In this document: positions 45,347 through 52,001 of the stretch, one piece after another
How the letters are laid out: each line of letters begins with the position of its first letter
Numbering within the stretch: the stretch's first letter is position 1
NCBI GenBank assembly: GCA_022824025.1
Contig: JAJEBF010000022.1
Coordinates: 62,001 to 126,000, forward strand
Source: Caldilineaceae bacterium
GTDB taxonomy: Bacteria > Chloroflexota > Anaerolineae > Caldilineales > Caldilineaceae
Length of the DNA stretch: 64,000 nt
Direction: 5' to 3'
Translations under genes and position numbers: made by a program
Notes under the pieces: model-generated
Told to the model about the DNA's origin: nothing
Seen by the model: the letters and a program-made list of their open reading frames with translations, nothing else
Database searches by the model: none

Positions 45347-45381
45347 CAGTGGTCGGTGGTTAGGGTTCAGTGGTCAGTTGG
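45347..45381. repeat. Dispersed intergenic phrase GTGGTCAGTGG, copy 2
   Basis: CAGTGGTCGGTGGTTAGG followed by TTCAGTGGTCAGTTGG; the end runs into the last codon of the MFS gene. Confidence 0.6.
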
Positions 45382-46687
45382 CGCGGCGGGGTTCGATGCG
45401 GGCGAGGTAGAGGCAGACGGCGAGGAGGAGGAGGGCCATTGAATAGTTGATGCCGAGGGCGGTCTGGAAGCTCCAGAGGTCGGAGAAGACGGCGGTCCAG
45501 AGGGGCGGGAGCATGGTGCCGATGGTCATGGCGACGTTGAGGACGCCGGTGACGGAACCGCTGTGCTGGGGGTAGAGGCGGGAGCCGTATGCGAGAGCGG
45601 TGGGGAAGAGGCCGGAGAGGGTGAGGCCGGTGAGGAAGATGCCGATGACGAGGGGCGCGGCCGTCGTGCTGAAGACGACGAGGGGATAGGTGAGGACGAG
45701 GCCGGCGGAGAGGATGAGGAGGGTAGCTCCGTAGCCGAGGCGTTCGGCGTAGGCGGCGCAGAGAAAGCGGCCGGCGGTGAGTGCGACATAGAAGACGGAG
45801 ATCATGGAGATGGAGTAGAAGGTGGAGAGGCCGGCGGACTCCTGCATGAAGAGTGCTACCCAGCCGAGCAGGCTGAAGGCGACGCCGTTGTAGATGAAGG
45901 CGATGAGGAAGAGGGCGAGAAAACCGGCGTTACGCAGCATGCCCCAGTTGGAAGCCAGGATATCGCGCAGCGTGTCCCAAGCAGAAGAGAGAATTGATGT
46001 GCCGGCCTCGCCTTGCGAGGTCTTTTGATGTTGTGGGTCGCGGCCCGGTTCGTCCTGGTCCGGCGCGGGCGCGGCGGGCTGTGGCGGCGGGTTGATCCTG
46101 CGGTAGAGCAGGAGTGAGCCGGCGCCATAGATGAGCCAGATGATGCCGGTGGCGGCGATTGTCCAGCGCCAGGGGACGCCCTGTTCGAGGACGACGCCGA
46201 AAACGAGGGGGGAGAATGTTGCGCCGACGGCGTAGACGCCGTGGAGAACGTTGAGGGCGCGGGCGCGGCTGTCGCGGTTCGCGTCGGCGACCATGGCGTT
46301 GATGCCGGTGGTGAGGGAGGCCTGGACGATGCTGATCAGGGCAAAGCCGGCGAGGAACAGGAGCCAGAGGCCGGCGCCGGCGACCAGCACCATGGAGGCG
46401 GCGAGCGCGAGCGCGGCGATCCAGACGAGCTTGCTGTAGCCGAGGTGGTCGGAGGCGATGCCGGCGAGGAGGTTGCCGAGAATGCCGCCGACGGCGCGGG
46501 CCGGGAAGATGAGGCCGATTGCGGTCAGGGTCAGGCCGGTGGCCATGTACTCGTCGGTGATGAAGGGCATCACGGACGGGATGAGGACCGCGGCGGTACC
46601 GATGAAGAAATAGCCGGTCAGGCCGAGTGCGGTGACGGGCAGGGCGGTCGCGGCCGGCGCGAGGGTGGCGCGATTCAGTTTTGCCAT
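45374..46687 (-). CDS. Major facilitator superfamily transporter
   Basis: A 437-residue protein with about twelve membrane helices and a central cytoplasmic loop (residues ~205-250, rich in Pro, Glu and Gln). The MFS cytoplasmic motif appears as GILGNLLAGIASDHLGYSKL in the first half; the second half has AGRFLCAAYAERLGYG. The frame runs on upstream, but ATG at 46687 (MAKLNRATLAP) is the sensible start and overlaps the preceding permease stop by 13 bases, so it probably belongs to the metal transport operon. Substrate not readable. Confidence 0.85.
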   Translation of the reverse strand: MAKLNRATLAPAATALPVTALGLTGYFFIGTAAVLIPSVMPFITDEYMATGLTLTAIGLIFPARAVGGILGNLLAGIASDHLGYSKLVWIAALALAASMVLVAGAGLWLLFLAGFALISIVQASLTTGINAMVADANRDSRARALNVLHGVYAVGATFSPLVFGVVLEQGVPWRWTIAATGIIWLIYGAGSLLLYRRINPPPQPAAPAPDQDEPGRDPQHQKTSQGEAGTSILSSAWDTLRDILASNWGMLRNAGFLALFLIAFIYNGVAFSLLGWVALFMQESAGLSTFYSISMISVFYVALTAGRFLCAAYAERLGYGATLLILSAGLVLTYPLVVFSTTAAPLVIGIFLTGLTLSGLFPTALAYGSRLYPQHSGSVTGVLNVAMTIGTMLPPLWTAVFSDLWSFQTALGINYSMALLLLAVCLYLARIEPRRAN

Positions 46688-48192
46688 GTAGATGGTTCTC
46701 CCACGCTTTCGTTGGTGAGCTGTGTCTGTCTGAAGCGGTTGGCGTAGGTCTCGCCGCGGTCGGTGAGGGAGACGAGATCGGCCTCGATGCGCACGAGACT
46801 GCGCGCACGCAGTTGGCGTAGTGTACGCTGCATTTTCTGCGGTGTCCAACGGAAGTGGCGGTAGAGGGTCGAGACGGCCAACTCCTCGCCGGCGGCGGGG
46901 CTGCCCTGGTGGTGGTGGATGTGGCCGAGGACGACCTGGTGATCGAAGCTGCGGCGCTGCCTGCGGCGGCGCAGCATGGTTGAGACCAGTCCGTATTTGG
47001 GCGAAAAGACCCAGGCGGCGAGAAAGAAGATGAAGGTCATCAGCACCATGGAGGCGGAGATGGATGAATCCCACTGTTCACTGAGGCCGAGGTCGAAGAG
47101 GTCGTTCAGCATGGCAAGAGTGCCGCTAATGTTCACCACGCCCAGCAGGTTGCCGCGGGCGAGGTCGTAGCCGGTGTAGGCGCTGAGCGCGCCGATGAGC
47201 GAGCTGTAGGCCAGAATGCGGGGCAGGCGGTCGGTGAGGAGGTAGGCGGCGGCGGGCGGGATGATAAAGAAGGCGACGACGAGAATGGAGCCGACAGCGT
47301 CGAACGCGCCGACGGCCACGAGGCTGACAAGGACCATGAGGCCGTAGTGGAGGAGGGAGGGGCGGAAGCCGAGCGCGGCCGCGAGGGTCGGGTCGAAGGT
47401 CGAGAGTTTGAGCTCTTTGTAGAAGAGAATGATGGCGAGAAGGGTGAGCAGTGTCAGCACGGCCATGACGGTGATCGACTTGGGCCAGAAGACGAGGACG
47501 GGCTCCAGCCGGGTGAAGCCGGCCTGCCAGGCCTGGGCCGGGCTGTAATCGCCGCAGTTGGTGCAGATCTCGGTGAACTCGGCTTTGTCGTCCCGGGGGC
47601 TGATGCCCAGATCGCGGCAGTTCGTGCACTGGCGCGTCGTCTCTGCGCGGGGGTCGTCGGGGGTGATGGTGACGGATTCGCAGCCGCTGAGGCAGTGGCT
47701 GTTGGTGTTGGCCCAGGCGACGCCGATTTCGCCGACCATGACGGAGTCTTCGTCGAGATGCACGTCGCTGACGACGCGGGAGACGAGGATGACGGCGATG
47801 GCGAAGAGAAGGGGGAAGGCGAGGCCGAGGGCGGCATCCTGTTTGACGAGCCCGGAGCGGTAGATGAGCTCGGTGAGGAGGACGGTGGCCACGCCGGCGG
47901 CGGCCGCGCCGACGATGAGCCAGACGGAGGAGAGATCTGGCCGCTGGCCGAAGACAGAGCCCATAAGGATGAAGGCGACGACGATGCCGAGGAGCACGGT
48001 GTGGCTGATGGCGTCGCTGGTAAGGGACATGCCGCGCAGGAGCAGGAATGTGCCCAGCAGCGAGCCGGATACGGCGATGAGGCTGCCGACGATAGTGGCG
48101 GTATGCTGGGGGTTGCGCAGAAAGGCGTTGAGCTCTTCGCGGGCGACGAAGTTCAGGAGTAGCTGGATGATGAGTTCTTCGAGTTGAAACAT
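46675..48192 (-). CDS. Metal ABC permease with Cys-rich insert and C-terminal winged helix
   Basis: A 505-residue ABC-3 family permease for Mn, Zn or Fe (RGMSLTSDAISHTVLLGIV, GLVKQDAALGLAFP, ELKLSTFDPTLAAALGF). Two features are unusual. First, a hydrophilic insert at about residues 160-225 has C167, C171, C189, C192, C210 and C213 (CLSGC, CTNC, CTNC), a possible metal site. Second, about 80 extra residues at the C-terminus (VVLGHIHHHQGSPAAGEELA to LVSLTDRGETYANRF) form a predicted winged helix. It is the distal permease of the operon. Confidence 0.88.
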   Translation of the reverse strand: MFQLEELIIQLLLNFVAREELNAFLRNPQHTATIVGSLIAVSGSLLGTFLLLRGMSLTSDAISHTVLLGIVVAFILMGSVFGQRPDLSSVWLIVGAAAAGVATVLLTELIYRSGLVKQDAALGLAFPLLFAIAVILVSRVVSDVHLDEDSVMVGEIGVAWANTNSHCLSGCESVTITPDDPRAETTRQCTNCRDLGISPRDDKAEFTEICTNCGDYSPAQAWQAGFTRLEPVLVFWPKSITVMAVLTLLTLLAIILFYKELKLSTFDPTLAAALGFRPSLLHYGLMVLVSLVAVGAFDAVGSILVVAFFIIPPAAAYLLTDRLPRILAYSSLIGALSAYTGYDLARGNLLGVVNISGTLAMLNDLFDLGLSEQWDSSISASMVLMTFIFFLAAWVFSPKYGLVSTMLRRRRQRRSFDHQVVLGHIHHHQGSPAAGEELAVSTLYRHFRWTPQKMQRTLRQLRARSLVRIEADLVSLTDRGETYANRFRQTQLTNESVGEPSTWQN

Positions 48193-48203
48193 TGAAGGGC
48201 AGA

Positions 48204-48230
48204 GGTCAGTGGTTAGTGGTCAGTGGTCAG
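48204..48230. repeat. Dispersed intergenic phrase GTGGTCAGTGG, copy 3
   Basis: GGTCAGTGGTTAGTGGTCAG then TGGTCAG, between the two metal permease genes. Confidence 0.65.
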
Positions 48231-48252
48231 TAACTTCGCCGGCTTGCCGCGG

Positions 48253-49623
48253 TTAGGATGTTGGTGGGGTGGCGGCGTTGCGGATGGTGTCGAGTTTGTA
48301 TTCGAGTTTGGCGACGGCCTCGGGGGGGAGGAGGTTGGCGATGGGCTGCTGGCGGTCTTCGGCGATGATGGGCAGGGAGAGGTCGTCGGCGTACTGGCGG
48401 TAGAGGGCCCAGAGCTGGTGGTTGCGGTCGTCCTGGGCGGCGGCTTCGATGCCGGCGCGGGTGAGCATCCAGGCTCCGTTGCGGCGCTGTGCCTGGCCGC
48501 GGGTCTGGAGCTGGCGGAGGCCCTCTCTGGCGGTGGCGCCGCGCACGCCCAAGAGGAAGGATTCGGGGGCGGGCGAGTCGGCGCGGCCGTGGTCGAGGGC
48601 GTAGTGGTAGAGATCCTGCAACATGGTCTGGGCGGCGAAGCGGCGGCTGTCGCTGCGCTGGCGCAGGAGCGTCCAGAGGAGGCCGCGGCCGGGTGCGAAG
48701 CCGAGGGATACGGCCACCAGGAGGAAGGCGACCACCACGATGAGCGGGCCTGTGGGAATATCGGCGTCGACGGCGCTGGTGATTGCGCCGACGCCGCCGG
48801 CGAATGCGCCGAATACGGCGGCGAGGATGACCATCTGGCCGAGCTGGTTGGTCCACTGGCGGGCGGCGATGCCGGATGCGATCAGCATGCCGACCATGAG
48901 GATGACACCGGCCAGCTGCAGGCCGAGCACGATGGCGACGACGATGAGGGTGGAGAGGAGCATGTTGAGGAGGTTGACGCGGAAACCGCTGGCTCCGGCG
49001 AACTCGGGGTCGAAGGTGATGAGTTTGAGCTCTTTCCAGAAGAGGGCGAGCACAGTGAAGGAGACGGCGCCGACGACCGCGATGAGGCGGACGTCGCGTT
49101 CAATGATGGCGGCGGCCTGGCCAAAGATAAAGGTGTCGAGGCCGGCCTGGCTGGCGTCCGGGCGGGCCTGGATGTAGACGAGGAGGGCGATGCCGGCGGC
49201 GAACCAGGCGGCGAGGACGATGCCCATGGCGGCGTCCTGCTTGATGCGGGTGGTGGCGGTGACGAGGCGGATGAAGAGGACGCCGAGCCAGCTGGTGACG
49301 CCGGCGCCGATCAGGAGCAGGCCGAGGTCGCGTCCAGCGAGGAGAAAGGCGATGGCAACGCCGGGCAGGGCGGCGTGGGATAGAGCGTCGCCGAGGAGGC
49401 TCTGGCGGCGCAGGACGGCGAAACAGCCGAGGACGCCGCTGACGATGCCGAGCAGCGCGCCGCCGAGGGCGACGGTACGCAGCGTGTAGTCGTATTCGAC
49501 ATGGAGGAAGAGCTGGCTGAAGGGAATAAACAGCGCGGCGACGAGAGCGGTGGCTGCGATGAGGAGCCAGATGCGCTGGTCGGAACTGCGGTTTTTTGTG
49601 GTGAGCGCGTCGGTTTTGGTCAT
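48253..49623 (-). CDS. Metal ABC permease with C-terminal DtxR-like domain
   Basis: A 456-residue ABC-3 permease (RRQSLLGDALSHAALPGVAIA, KELKLITFDPEFAGASGF, GVILMVGMLIASGIAARQW) whose C-terminal ~140 residues read as a winged helix plus a helical dimerisation-type segment (GATAREGLRQLQTRG, DDRNHQLWALYRQYADDLSL) reminiscent of DtxR/MntR regulators. It may sense metal in the cytoplasm or be a fusion remnant. With the next gene it forms the channel of the importer. Confidence 0.88.
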   Translation of the reverse strand: MTKTDALTTKNRSSDQRIWLLIAATALVAALFIPFSQLFLHVEYDYTLRTVALGGALLGIVSGVLGCFAVLRRQSLLGDALSHAALPGVAIAFLLAGRDLGLLLIGAGVTSWLGVLFIRLVTATTRIKQDAAMGIVLAAWFAAGIALLVYIQARPDASQAGLDTFIFGQAAAIIERDVRLIAVVGAVSFTVLALFWKELKLITFDPEFAGASGFRVNLLNMLLSTLIVVAIVLGLQLAGVILMVGMLIASGIAARQWTNQLGQMVILAAVFGAFAGGVGAITSAVDADIPTGPLIVVVAFLLVAVSLGFAPGRGLLWTLLRQRSDSRRFAAQTMLQDLYHYALDHGRADSPAPESFLLGVRGATAREGLRQLQTRGQAQRRNGAWMLTRAGIEAAAQDDRNHQLWALYRQYADDLSLPIIAEDRQQPIANLLPPEAVAKLEYKLDTIRNAATPPTS

Positions 49624-49684
49624 GTTGGTTGAAGTGTTTAGTAGTCAGTTATTCGTTTTTAGTGAACTGCTGAGTAGGCGGAGA

Positions 49685-49721
49685 ACACCTTTTTGTCCAC
49701 GGAGGGCCACGGAGAAAGACC
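49685..49721. repeat. Dispersed intergenic phrase TTTGTCCACGAAGGG, copy 1
   Basis: CACCTTTTTGTCCACGGAGG and GCCACGGAGAAAGACC in the gap upstream of the second permease. Related phrases occur at 56716-56780 and 57900-57975. Confidence 0.6.
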
Positions 49722-49762
49722 ATTCTTGATTGGCTGGGGGTCATAAGGAGTGCCGGTCATCT

Positions 49763-50557
49763 TTATTCTTCTTCGAGGCCGGCGATGCGCTGGCCTTCCT
49801 GGAGGTAGGCGACGCGGCCGCCGTAGGTGCGGCGCAGGTTGTCGGGCGTGTAGGTTTCGGCGATGGGGCCGGTTGCGACGATTTCGACGTTGAGCAGGGT
49901 GACCCAGTCGAAGTATTCGGGGGCGGTTTGCAGGTCGTGGTGGACGACGACGACGGTTTTGCCGCGGGCGCGCAGCTCGCGCAGGATGGCGATGATGGCG
50001 CGTTCGGTGACGGCGTCGACGGCGGCGAAGGGCTCGTCCATGAGATAGATGCGGGCGTCCTGGACGAGGGCGCGGGCGAGGAAGGTGCGCTGTTGCTGGC
50101 CGCCGGAGAGCTGGCTGATCTGGCGGTCGGCGAAATCCTGCATGCCGACCTGCTCAAGGGCGTGCATAGCTGTGTTGAGTTCGCTCTGGCCGGGCCGCCG
50201 GATCCAGCCCAAACGGCCATAGAGGCCCATGGTGACGACGTCGAGCACGGTGGTGGGGAAGTCCCAGTCGACGCTGCCGCGCTGGGGGACGTAGCCGACG
50301 AGGCCGCGCACCTGTTCGTAGGGCTGGCCGTAGAACTGGACCGTGCCGGCGGCGCGGGGGATGAGCTTGAGGGCCGCTTTGATGAGCGTGCTCTTGCCTG
50401 CTCCGTTGGGGCCGATGATGGCCATGAGGACGCCTTCGGGCACATGCAGATCGATATCCCAGATAGCGGGTTTGCCGCTGTAGGCGACGGTCAGGTCGTC
50501 GATCTCCATGGCCGGATTCGAGTCGTTACGCGGGCCGTTTCCGCTGAGGGCGCTCAC
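49763..50557 (-). CDS. Metal ABC transporter ATPase (ZnuC/MntA type)
   Basis: A 264-residue ABC ATPase: Walker [10 protein letters not shown] at about residues 43-51, signature [15 protein letters not shown], Walker [13 protein letters not shown] and switch histidine VVVHHDL. Length and motifs fit manganese/zinc/iron import ATPases. It lies between the solute-binding protein gene upstream and the two permease genes downstream, all on one strand. Confidence 0.95.
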
Positions 50558-50739
50558 TTCAGTTTACTCCTTACAGGGGCGCGGGTTGTTGCCGGGCATC
50601 GCCGGTTTCGCGGGTTCACGCCGCGCAGCGGCGGCAGGACGAGCGGGCTCTGGCGCGCTGGCGGCGGATAGGGACCGGTCGCGCTCCCGGGGGAATGAGC
50701 GCGACCTTGACGAACAAGGGATTCACCGCTGTCCGGCCG

Positions 50740-51900
50740 TCAGTTCTCTTCAGTTTCACAGTCGACCATGAGCAACGTCTCTGGCGGCGCCGTGGCGATG
50801 GCAGCCGGCCATTCGGGGATGGAGGCGGGCGCGCCGGCGCACTGGTAGGACTGCAGGATGGTGTAGACATTTGCGGCGATCATGCCGATGTAGGCGCCGG
50901 GGAAAGTTCCGGGTCTGCCCATGGCGTCGGAGTAGAGTTCGCGCACGCCGACGCGGACGGCTCCGCCTTCGGCTTCAATGGCGGCCTGGACCGCTTCGAT
51001 CGTATCGGGCGAGATGCTGCTCTCGACGAAAAGGACGGGGATCCCCTGCTCGACGACGAACTGGGCGGTGCGCTGGATGTCGCCGACGCCGGTCTCGTCC
51101 TCGGTGCTGATGCCCTGGATGCCGGCCATGCGCCAGCCGAAGGCCGCGCCAAAGTATTGGAAGGCGTCATGGGAAGTGACGAGGTAGCGTTGGGCTTCGG
51201 GCACGGAACGCATGCCTTCGCTGGCCCAGGCGAAGAGCGCGCGCAGCTGCTCGTTGTAAACCTGGGCATGGGCGGTGTAGGCGGCGGCATTGTCCGGATC
51301 GAGTTCGGCCAGAGTTTGTGCCAGGTCGGCGGCGGTGATCTCCCAGTTGCGGGGGTCGAACCAGAAGTGGGGGTCGTCGGCTCCGGATTGGGTCTGGTCG
51401 GCGCCATAGCCGCCGATGATGAAGCCGCCGTCTTTGACCGGTTTGGAGAGGCTGTAGATCGGTGTGCCCTGTTCGCGCAGGGCTTCGAAGACGGCGTCGA
51501 ATTGGCCCTCGAGATGGAGGCCGCTGTAGATGACCATATCGGCGGCGTTCATGGCGCGAATGTCGGATTCGGTGGGCTGGTAGAGATGGGGGTCGACGCC
51601 GGCGCCCATGAGGGGCGTGATTTCGATGCCGGCGACGCCGTCGGTGAGGACCCTGGAGAGGTCGCTGGCCTGGGTGGTGGTGGCGACGATGCGGAAGGTT
51701 CCGTCGGCGCGCACGGAGGCGGATGCGGAGGGATCCGGTTGGGTCTGTTGTACGGCGGCGGCTTCGACGACGGCGGGCTCCCGGTTACGGTTGCAGGCTG
51801 TGACGAGGAGCGCGGCGAGCAGGAGCAGGAAGACGACGGGCGCCTTTCTGACGTGCGCTATGGATGGCTGGAATGATTGCGAAGGTGTGATTGTGTTCAA
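50740..51900 (-). CDS. Metal ABC solute-binding lipoprotein (TroA/MntC/ZnuA family)
   Basis: A 386-residue cluster A-I binding protein. Signal peptide with lipobox LLVTAC (C36). Likely metal ligands: H in MGAGVDPHLYQPTESDI, H in DDPHFWFDPRNW, then VTSHDAFQYFGAAFGW and a Glu/Asp in GISTEDETGVGD or LFVESSISPD. The set His-His-Glu-Asp is typical for manganese or iron binders, while zinc binders carry a His-rich loop, which is absent here. First gene of the operon, behind a DtxR-type operator. Confidence 0.93.
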   Translation of the reverse strand: MNTITPSQSFQPSIAHVRKAPVVFLLLLAALLVTACNRNREPAVVEAAAVQQTQPDPSASASVRADGTFRIVATTTQASDLSRVLTDGVAGIEITPLMGAGVDPHLYQPTESDIRAMNAADMVIYSGLHLEGQFDAVFEALREQGTPIYSLSKPVKDGGFIIGGYGADQTQSGADDPHFWFDPRNWEITAADLAQTLAELDPDNAAAYTAHAQVYNEQLRALFAWASEGMRSVPEAQRYLVTSHDAFQYFGAAFGWRMAGIQGISTEDETGVGDIQRTAQFVVEQGIPVLFVESSISPDTIEAVQAAIEAEGGAVRVGVRELYSDAMGRPGTFPGAYIGMIAANVYTILQSYQCAGAPASIPEWPAAIATAPPETLLMVDCETEEN

Positions 51901-51970: not shown

Positions 51971-51984
51971 TAAGGATAGCCTAA
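51971..51984. promoter_or_regulatory. DtxR-family operator (iron/manganese box)
   Basis: TAAGGATAGCCTAA (complement TTAGGCTATCCTTA) is a near-match to the DtxR/IdeR consensus TTAGGnTAGCCTAA, and is imperfectly palindromic. It overlaps the -10 of the promoter on the minus strand, so a metal-loaded repressor would block it. Confidence 0.7.
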
Positions 51985-52001
51985 TAATCTGTTGTTGTCA
52001 A
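51973..52001 (-). promoter_or_regulatory. Promoter of the metal importer operon
   Basis: On the minus strand TTGACA (51996-52001), a 17-base spacer and TATCCT (51973-51978). It lies about 75 bases before the solute-binding protein start, in an A+T-rich stretch. Confidence 0.7.

Follow-up and report, generated by a model that had tools for sequence, protein, structure and literature searches.

Winged-helix tails on both permeases, and a six-cysteine insert predicted to face outside in one of them, in a putative metal importer of a Caldilineaceae bacterium

Fusions of a metal permease with a regulator domain are usually read as transcription factors, after the model of Chlamydia, in which the C-terminal DtxR domain of the permease YtgC keeps the DtxR metal ligands, is released as YtgR and represses its own operon (PMC5599777). 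Permease-repressor fusions of this kind have been reported from 11 phyla (PMC5599777), and YtgC-YtgR is the nearest described case to the locus analyzed here, so that the fusion architecture itself is already known. In each of the two loci, a metal importer operon of four genes (in Chlamydia YtgABCD, which is TroABCD-like) encodes an ABC-3 permease that ends in a winged helix of the DtxR type. In the present locus, however, both permeases are tailed, the DtxR ligands are absent, stand-alone DtxR genes coexist with the fusion, and the second permease has a conserved set of His and Glu residues. The Streptococcus PsaBC and Bacillus MntBC importers (cluster 9, ABC-3) share the permease core fold and the gene content, and have one permease gene where this operon has two. 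Treponema TroABCDR resembles it in having two permeases and a tie to a DtxR-type regulator. In the open-licence literature we found no description of two tailed permeases accompanied by separate DtxR genes, of the His/Glu set or of the outer cysteine insert.

The window, by which we mean the whole 64,000-nucleotide stretch of DNA that was analyzed, contains on its minus strand an operon of four genes for an ABC-3 metal importer (46675-51900), in the order binding protein, ATPase, permease 1 and permease 2. The first gene (50740-51900, minus strand) encodes a substrate-binding lipoprotein of the ZnuA/TroA/MntC type (PF01297, E 3.3e-67), and the second (49763-50557, minus strand) an importer ABC ATPase (PF00005, E 5.3e-29). 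Both permease reading frames listed in the earlier note were recovered: permease 1 (48253-49623, minus strand, 456 aa; PF00950, E 9.4e-68; PsaC fold, Z 23) and permease 2 (46675-48192, minus strand, 505 aa; PF00950, E 2.5e-37; PsaC fold, Z 29.2 over 266 residues), the PF00950 match of the latter being split into two stretches by an insert. The matched PsaC chains, of 258-290 residues, cover the core only, with nothing corresponding to the tail or the cysteine insert. The permeases thus adjoin an ATPase and a ZnuA-type binding protein, as in other ABC-3 importers; this gene order is kept across phyla, and the nearest relatives are Caldilineaceae metagenome-assembled genomes (MAGs; Chloroflexota). 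NCBIfam gave no specific name to the operon proteins, the best model for the ATPase being the manganese family MntA (E 1.7e-69) and the nearest for the binding protein the zinc family AztC, and because all of these matches lie below cut-off the family models do not settle the metal of the importer. Judged from its link to DtxR-type regulation, the substrate is probably a divalent metal, manganese or iron. In permease 2, D60 and H64 are invariant, which we take to be compatible with a metal site in the channel. The genome also encodes two more ABC-3 permeases, each lying no more than a few kb from a Fur gene, suggesting that these are zinc systems. A separate system was seen in locus L118, where a Fur-family gene is directly followed by a gene for a His-rich ZnuA-like binding protein, and this pair too is probably a zinc system. 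Downstream of the operon, an MFS transporter gene (45374-46687, minus strand) starts inside the end of the permease 2 gene, with a 13-base overlap; it is conserved at this position in part of the genus only, and in more distant relatives it does not stay with the operon.

Starting from the anatomy of these proteins, their fold matches, their conservation and clade distribution, and the DtxR genes linked to relatives of the operon, we favor with modest confidence a model in which the importer would be a heterodimer of two ABC-3 permeases, each half carrying a C-terminal winged helix of the DtxR/MarR fold. The tails would lie in the cytosol beside the ATPases and most likely act on the transporter, as regulatory or assembly domains; transcription of the operon would most likely fall to stand-alone DtxR proteins; and a six-cysteine insert, gained separately on the outer face in one clade, would probably help the binding protein to dock. 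Topology, substrate, regulatory role and docking role are the deduced parts of this model.

As the earlier note had claimed, both permeases continue past the last helix, by ~140 residues in permease 1 and ~105 in permease 2, and the extra residues fold as winged helices related to DtxR/MntR. The permease 1 tail (residues 315-456; 48256-48681, minus strand) comprises a winged helix and a probable remnant of DtxR domain 2 (~residues 400-451), while the permease 2 tail (residues 401-505; 46678-46992, minus strand), predicted to be cytoplasmic, ends after the winged helix without a domain 2, as do the permease 1 tails of other phyla. In AlphaFold models (pLDDT 88.7 and 90.7, resting on 43-53 sequences), each tail opens with a long helix directly after the last transmembrane segment. 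Fold comparison of the permease 2 tail model gave E. coli MntR (2h09) at Z 11.6 over 97 residues and MarR proteins at Z 10-11. The permease 1 tail aligned with DtxR, IdeR and MntR at Z 8-8.7 over ~110 residues spanning 325-451, that is, over both DtxR domains; MarR proteins scored alike on the winged helix, and most of their matches ended near residue 400-416. Since a Z of 8 is near background for such searches, sequence comparison was added: a profile of permease 1 tails found the DtxR-type protein DR2539 (E 0.0048), and hhalign paired the two tails with each other at 95% (E 2.6e-8) and with stand-alone DtxR of the same genome at 71% and 88%. As a control, Fur was rejected as an origin of the tails (hhalign 0.1%). 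Neither tail is named by Pfam or NCBIfam, which gave only weak winged-helix matches below cut-off, and Pfam DtxR-family models matched none of the 43 and 53 members searched at E 0.01. The winged-helix reading of both tails holds, and the profile comparisons argue that the two are homologous to each other and to stand-alone DtxR. Two side observations concern permease 1: in the relative L077 (2303-2734) the wing of the tail holds a Cys-rich insertion of its own (CEECELFQSGHCPGC), which is different from the outer insert that permease 2 carries, and permease 1 tails of other phyla (e.g. L087, residues 314, 319 and 321) conserve a QH-x4-HxH motif that is lost in the insert clade.

The tails share their fold with the DtxR, MntR and IdeR repressors, but differ from them in being fused to a membrane protein and in their ligands. 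Alignment with two stand-alone DtxR proteins encoded elsewhere in this genome showed that the permease 1 tail is without the primary DtxR metal ligands, and the metal-binding domain 2 is missing from the permease 2 tail; the DtxR metal site is therefore absent from the tails, and the idea in the earlier note that they might sense metal through such a site loses its footing. This absence also weighs on the reading by analogy with Chlamydia, according to which the tail is a transcription factor, cleaved or membrane-bound, that represses the operon when metal is plentiful. That reading has the YtgR precedent and the other reported fusions behind it, and could draw on the fold match of the permease 1 tail to two-domain DtxR and on the recognition helix of the permease 2 tail, which is basic in sequence. 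YtgR, however, conserves the ligands that are missing here, intact DtxR genes accompany tailed operons and two occur in this genome, a single repressor would have no need of tails on both permeases, and several permease 1 relatives in the insert clade have no tail. We consider it quite improbable that the tails act in this way.

Separate regulators are common beside tailed permeases. Of 37 insert-free tailed operons, 22 had an intact DtxR gene in the retrieved flanking sequence, in many cases immediately upstream of the gene for the binding protein or immediately downstream of that for permease 2, and in one genome of the same family the genes for DtxR, binding protein, ATPase, tailed permease 1 and tailed permease 2 stand in a row. 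The layout of troABCD with troR resembles these DtxR-linked operons of insert-free relatives. The genome of the window differs from the Treponema arrangement in that its two stand-alone DtxR genes both lie away from the operon, none having been found beside it. Comparison of nine same-genus loci revealed an operator-like site, TTAGGCTATCCTTA (51971-51984, minus strand), which is present in all nine, a single locus differing at one base, and which overlaps the -10 box of a sigma-70-type operon promoter (TTGACA-17-TATCCT; 51973-52001, minus strand) that is itself conserved in the same-genus alignment. A repeat search upstream of the operon returned no inverted repeat at the settings used. The site follows the pattern TTAGG-N4-CCT(A/T)A, a relaxed form of which occurs once in the 5.0 Mb genome. 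Six copies of the exact form TTAGGN4CCTAA were counted in the 405,541 bases that make up the insert-free tailed loci, against 0.28 expected after shuffling, and all six sites lie 32-139 bases upstream of a DtxR match, in other phyla. Other Chloroflexota operons of the insert clade did not show the pattern; as a putative DtxR-type operator it is supported for the genus of the window and for other phyla, and not for the whole insert clade.

Because DtxR genes are linked to tailed operons and the operator-like site lies at the promoter, control of the operon probably rests with stand-alone DtxR proteins acting at that site. These observations weaken the suggestion in the earlier note that the tails regulate the operon directly, although a tail could bind the same operator. 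Ordinary DtxR control, with the tails serving another role, is the simplest reading. The survey separates two kinds of case: in many tailed importers the operon has an intact DtxR gene of its own and the tail is without DtxR metal ligands, lost or never present, so that these tails need another explanation. The design is widespread and has received little study, and it probably serves to tune or assemble the pump and not to switch genes.

If the tails act on the transporter, the permease 2 tail offers candidate residues. H424, H428, E437, H446 and W449 are conserved at 93-100% in ~80 proteins from many phyla; the set is kept in 41-42 of the 44 proteins from the insert clade, of which two are gapped there in the alignment, and in 36-37 of 37 insert-free proteins, which come from Clostridia, Bacteroidota, Gemmatimonadota, Poribacteria, Planctomycetota, an archaeal MAG and others. 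None of the eleven most conserved positions of this tail falls in the recognition helix. These five residues are a candidate cytosolic metal site, or a docking or contact site, inside the pump, and because of the His/His/Glu/His set the permease 2 tail is a serious candidate for regulation of the channel, the other possibility raised in the earlier note. Acting through His424, His428, Glu437 and His446, it may read cytosolic metal and slow import. In its most general form, which we put forward only tentatively, the proposal would be that importers across the bacteria sense cytosolic metal in the permease itself, by means of a repurposed winged helix whose new metal site (H424/H428/E437/H446 in permease 2) would turn the pump off once metal is abundant, while DtxR separately controls the genes. 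The near-invariance of the set allows a direct test of such post-translational control of metal import.

The same residues could instead be structural or contact the ATPase. The tails might grip the ATPases or each other, with His, Glu and Trp serving in contact or folding and no metal being sensed, as would suit both the long helix that begins each tail right after the membrane and the conservation of the tails in many phyla whatever the arrangement of the regulator. A near-invariant HxxxH-x8-E-x8-H is, however, a pattern that characterizes metal ligands more than ordinary packing residues, and we regard a purely structural role as doubtful. That the tails are functionless remnants of a captured DtxR gene is very improbable: a permease 1 tail that is without ligands, and missing in several clade members, would fit decay, but the permease 2 tail keeps near-invariant residues across phyla and averages 61% conservation in the insert clade.

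The second feature of permease 2 is an insert of 71 residues between TM4 and TM5 (residues 158-228; 47509-47721, minus strand). Counting helix by helix in the AlphaFold model from the ATPase-facing helix pair 258-273 places residues 1-26, 141-237 and 346-377 outside, and 397 onward inside. The positive-inside rule agrees, with 6 basic and 16 acidic residues in 141-237 and 7 basic and 1 acidic in the linker 397-418, and in published MntBC models, too, the N-terminal helix lies outside and the C-terminal one in the cytosol (PMC8487065). With the topology inferred in this way, by parity and homology, the insert would be extracytoplasmic and the tails cytoplasmic, so that they cannot form one sensor and the insert cannot directly serve the cytosolic tails.

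The six cysteines of permease 2 (167, 171, 189, 192, 210 and 213) all lie in the insert, with no others in the protein. The earlier note was right about their number and location; of the three pairs it named, CLSGC is C-x3-C and the other two are C-x2-C. The cysteines also proved to be conserved in relatives, the condition on which the earlier note had made its reading depend: of 44 proteins with the insert, 43 retain all six. The pairs C189-x-N-C192 and C210-x-N-C213 are present in all 44, and these CxNC knuckles sit in a 21-residue internal repeat (identity 0.37 at offset 21, against 0.13 or less at other offsets; p 0.0005 when the CxNC columns are left out). The first pair is more variable: in L071, the sole exception among the 44, C167 and C171 are lost together, and in L042 the spacing between them has widened from 3 to 19 residues. 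As in zinc ribbons, two CxxC knuckles stand at strand ends on predicted beta-hairpins (CxNC-x17-CxNC; strands 185-189, 206-210 and 214-216, model pLDDT ~90). The insert differs from known zinc ribbons in its extra C-x3-C pair and its predicted extracytoplasmic position, and a sequence search against solved structures gave no match (best E 0.34). It is probably a small zinc-ribbon-like or disulfide-held module.

Chance is a poor explanation of the insert, since in 13 of 14 same-genus genomes its reading frame stays open and its sequence is conserved, and it recurs in further families. In one same-genus genome (G009, 99% complete) neither permease 2 nor the insert was found, although the other same-genus genomes searched have both. 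Across the class, 36 of 396 genomes including the window matched the insert, one of them a weak match (E 4e-4) that we discounted, and the positive genomes belong to the genus of the window, to family f20 and to one more family. Among the loci taken from public genomes, proteins more than ~53% identical to permease 2 over the full length have the insert, and more distant ones do not. A tree built after the insert columns had been taken out still grouped the carriers in one branch (support 1.0), which suggests, from the sequences compared, that the insert is a gain of one Chloroflexota clade. The insert-free form predominates in the other genera of the family to which the window belongs, and one genus (g15) has a genome with the insert and another without it, so that transfer or loss is likely to be part of its history.

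Permease 2 has two further clade-specific additions, an N-terminal extension (residues 1-26; 48115-48192, minus strand) with modeled helices at 2-13 and 18-26, and a second insertion at residues 346-374 (47071-47157, minus strand). Both are absent in insert-free relatives, and by topology all clade-specific additions of permease 2 face outside. For MntBC, a contact between the outer N-terminus and the binding protein has been proposed (PMC11779740). These outer additions co-occur with a C-terminal extension of the binding protein beyond a conserved Y-I-G-M, which was found in every insert-clade binding protein whose C-terminus is intact (38 of 38, one more being truncated there) and in none of 34 insert-free ones; a Cys pair in this extension (354 and 381 in the window) is present in 33 of 39. 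We infer a joint remodeling of the docking face by the permease 2 additions and the binding-protein extension, with co-occurrence within one clade counting as one event, and the pair would be an example of an outer docking face remodeled in a single lineage. The insert might alternatively capture metal from the binding protein and relay it into the channel, and not be a structural docking module. Three conserved Cys pairs on the face at which metal arrives from the binding protein, two of them CxNC knuckles within the repeat, would be in keeping with a relay, but exposed extracellular thiols tend to oxidize or to hold structural zinc, and the loss of the first pair as a unit in L071 and its widened spacing in L042 would fit a disulfide; we therefore consider a relay unlikely and retain docking as the probable role. 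L071 is a MAG labelled Spirochaetales, and its insert-bearing operon of Chloroflexota type reflects either mis-binning or transfer.
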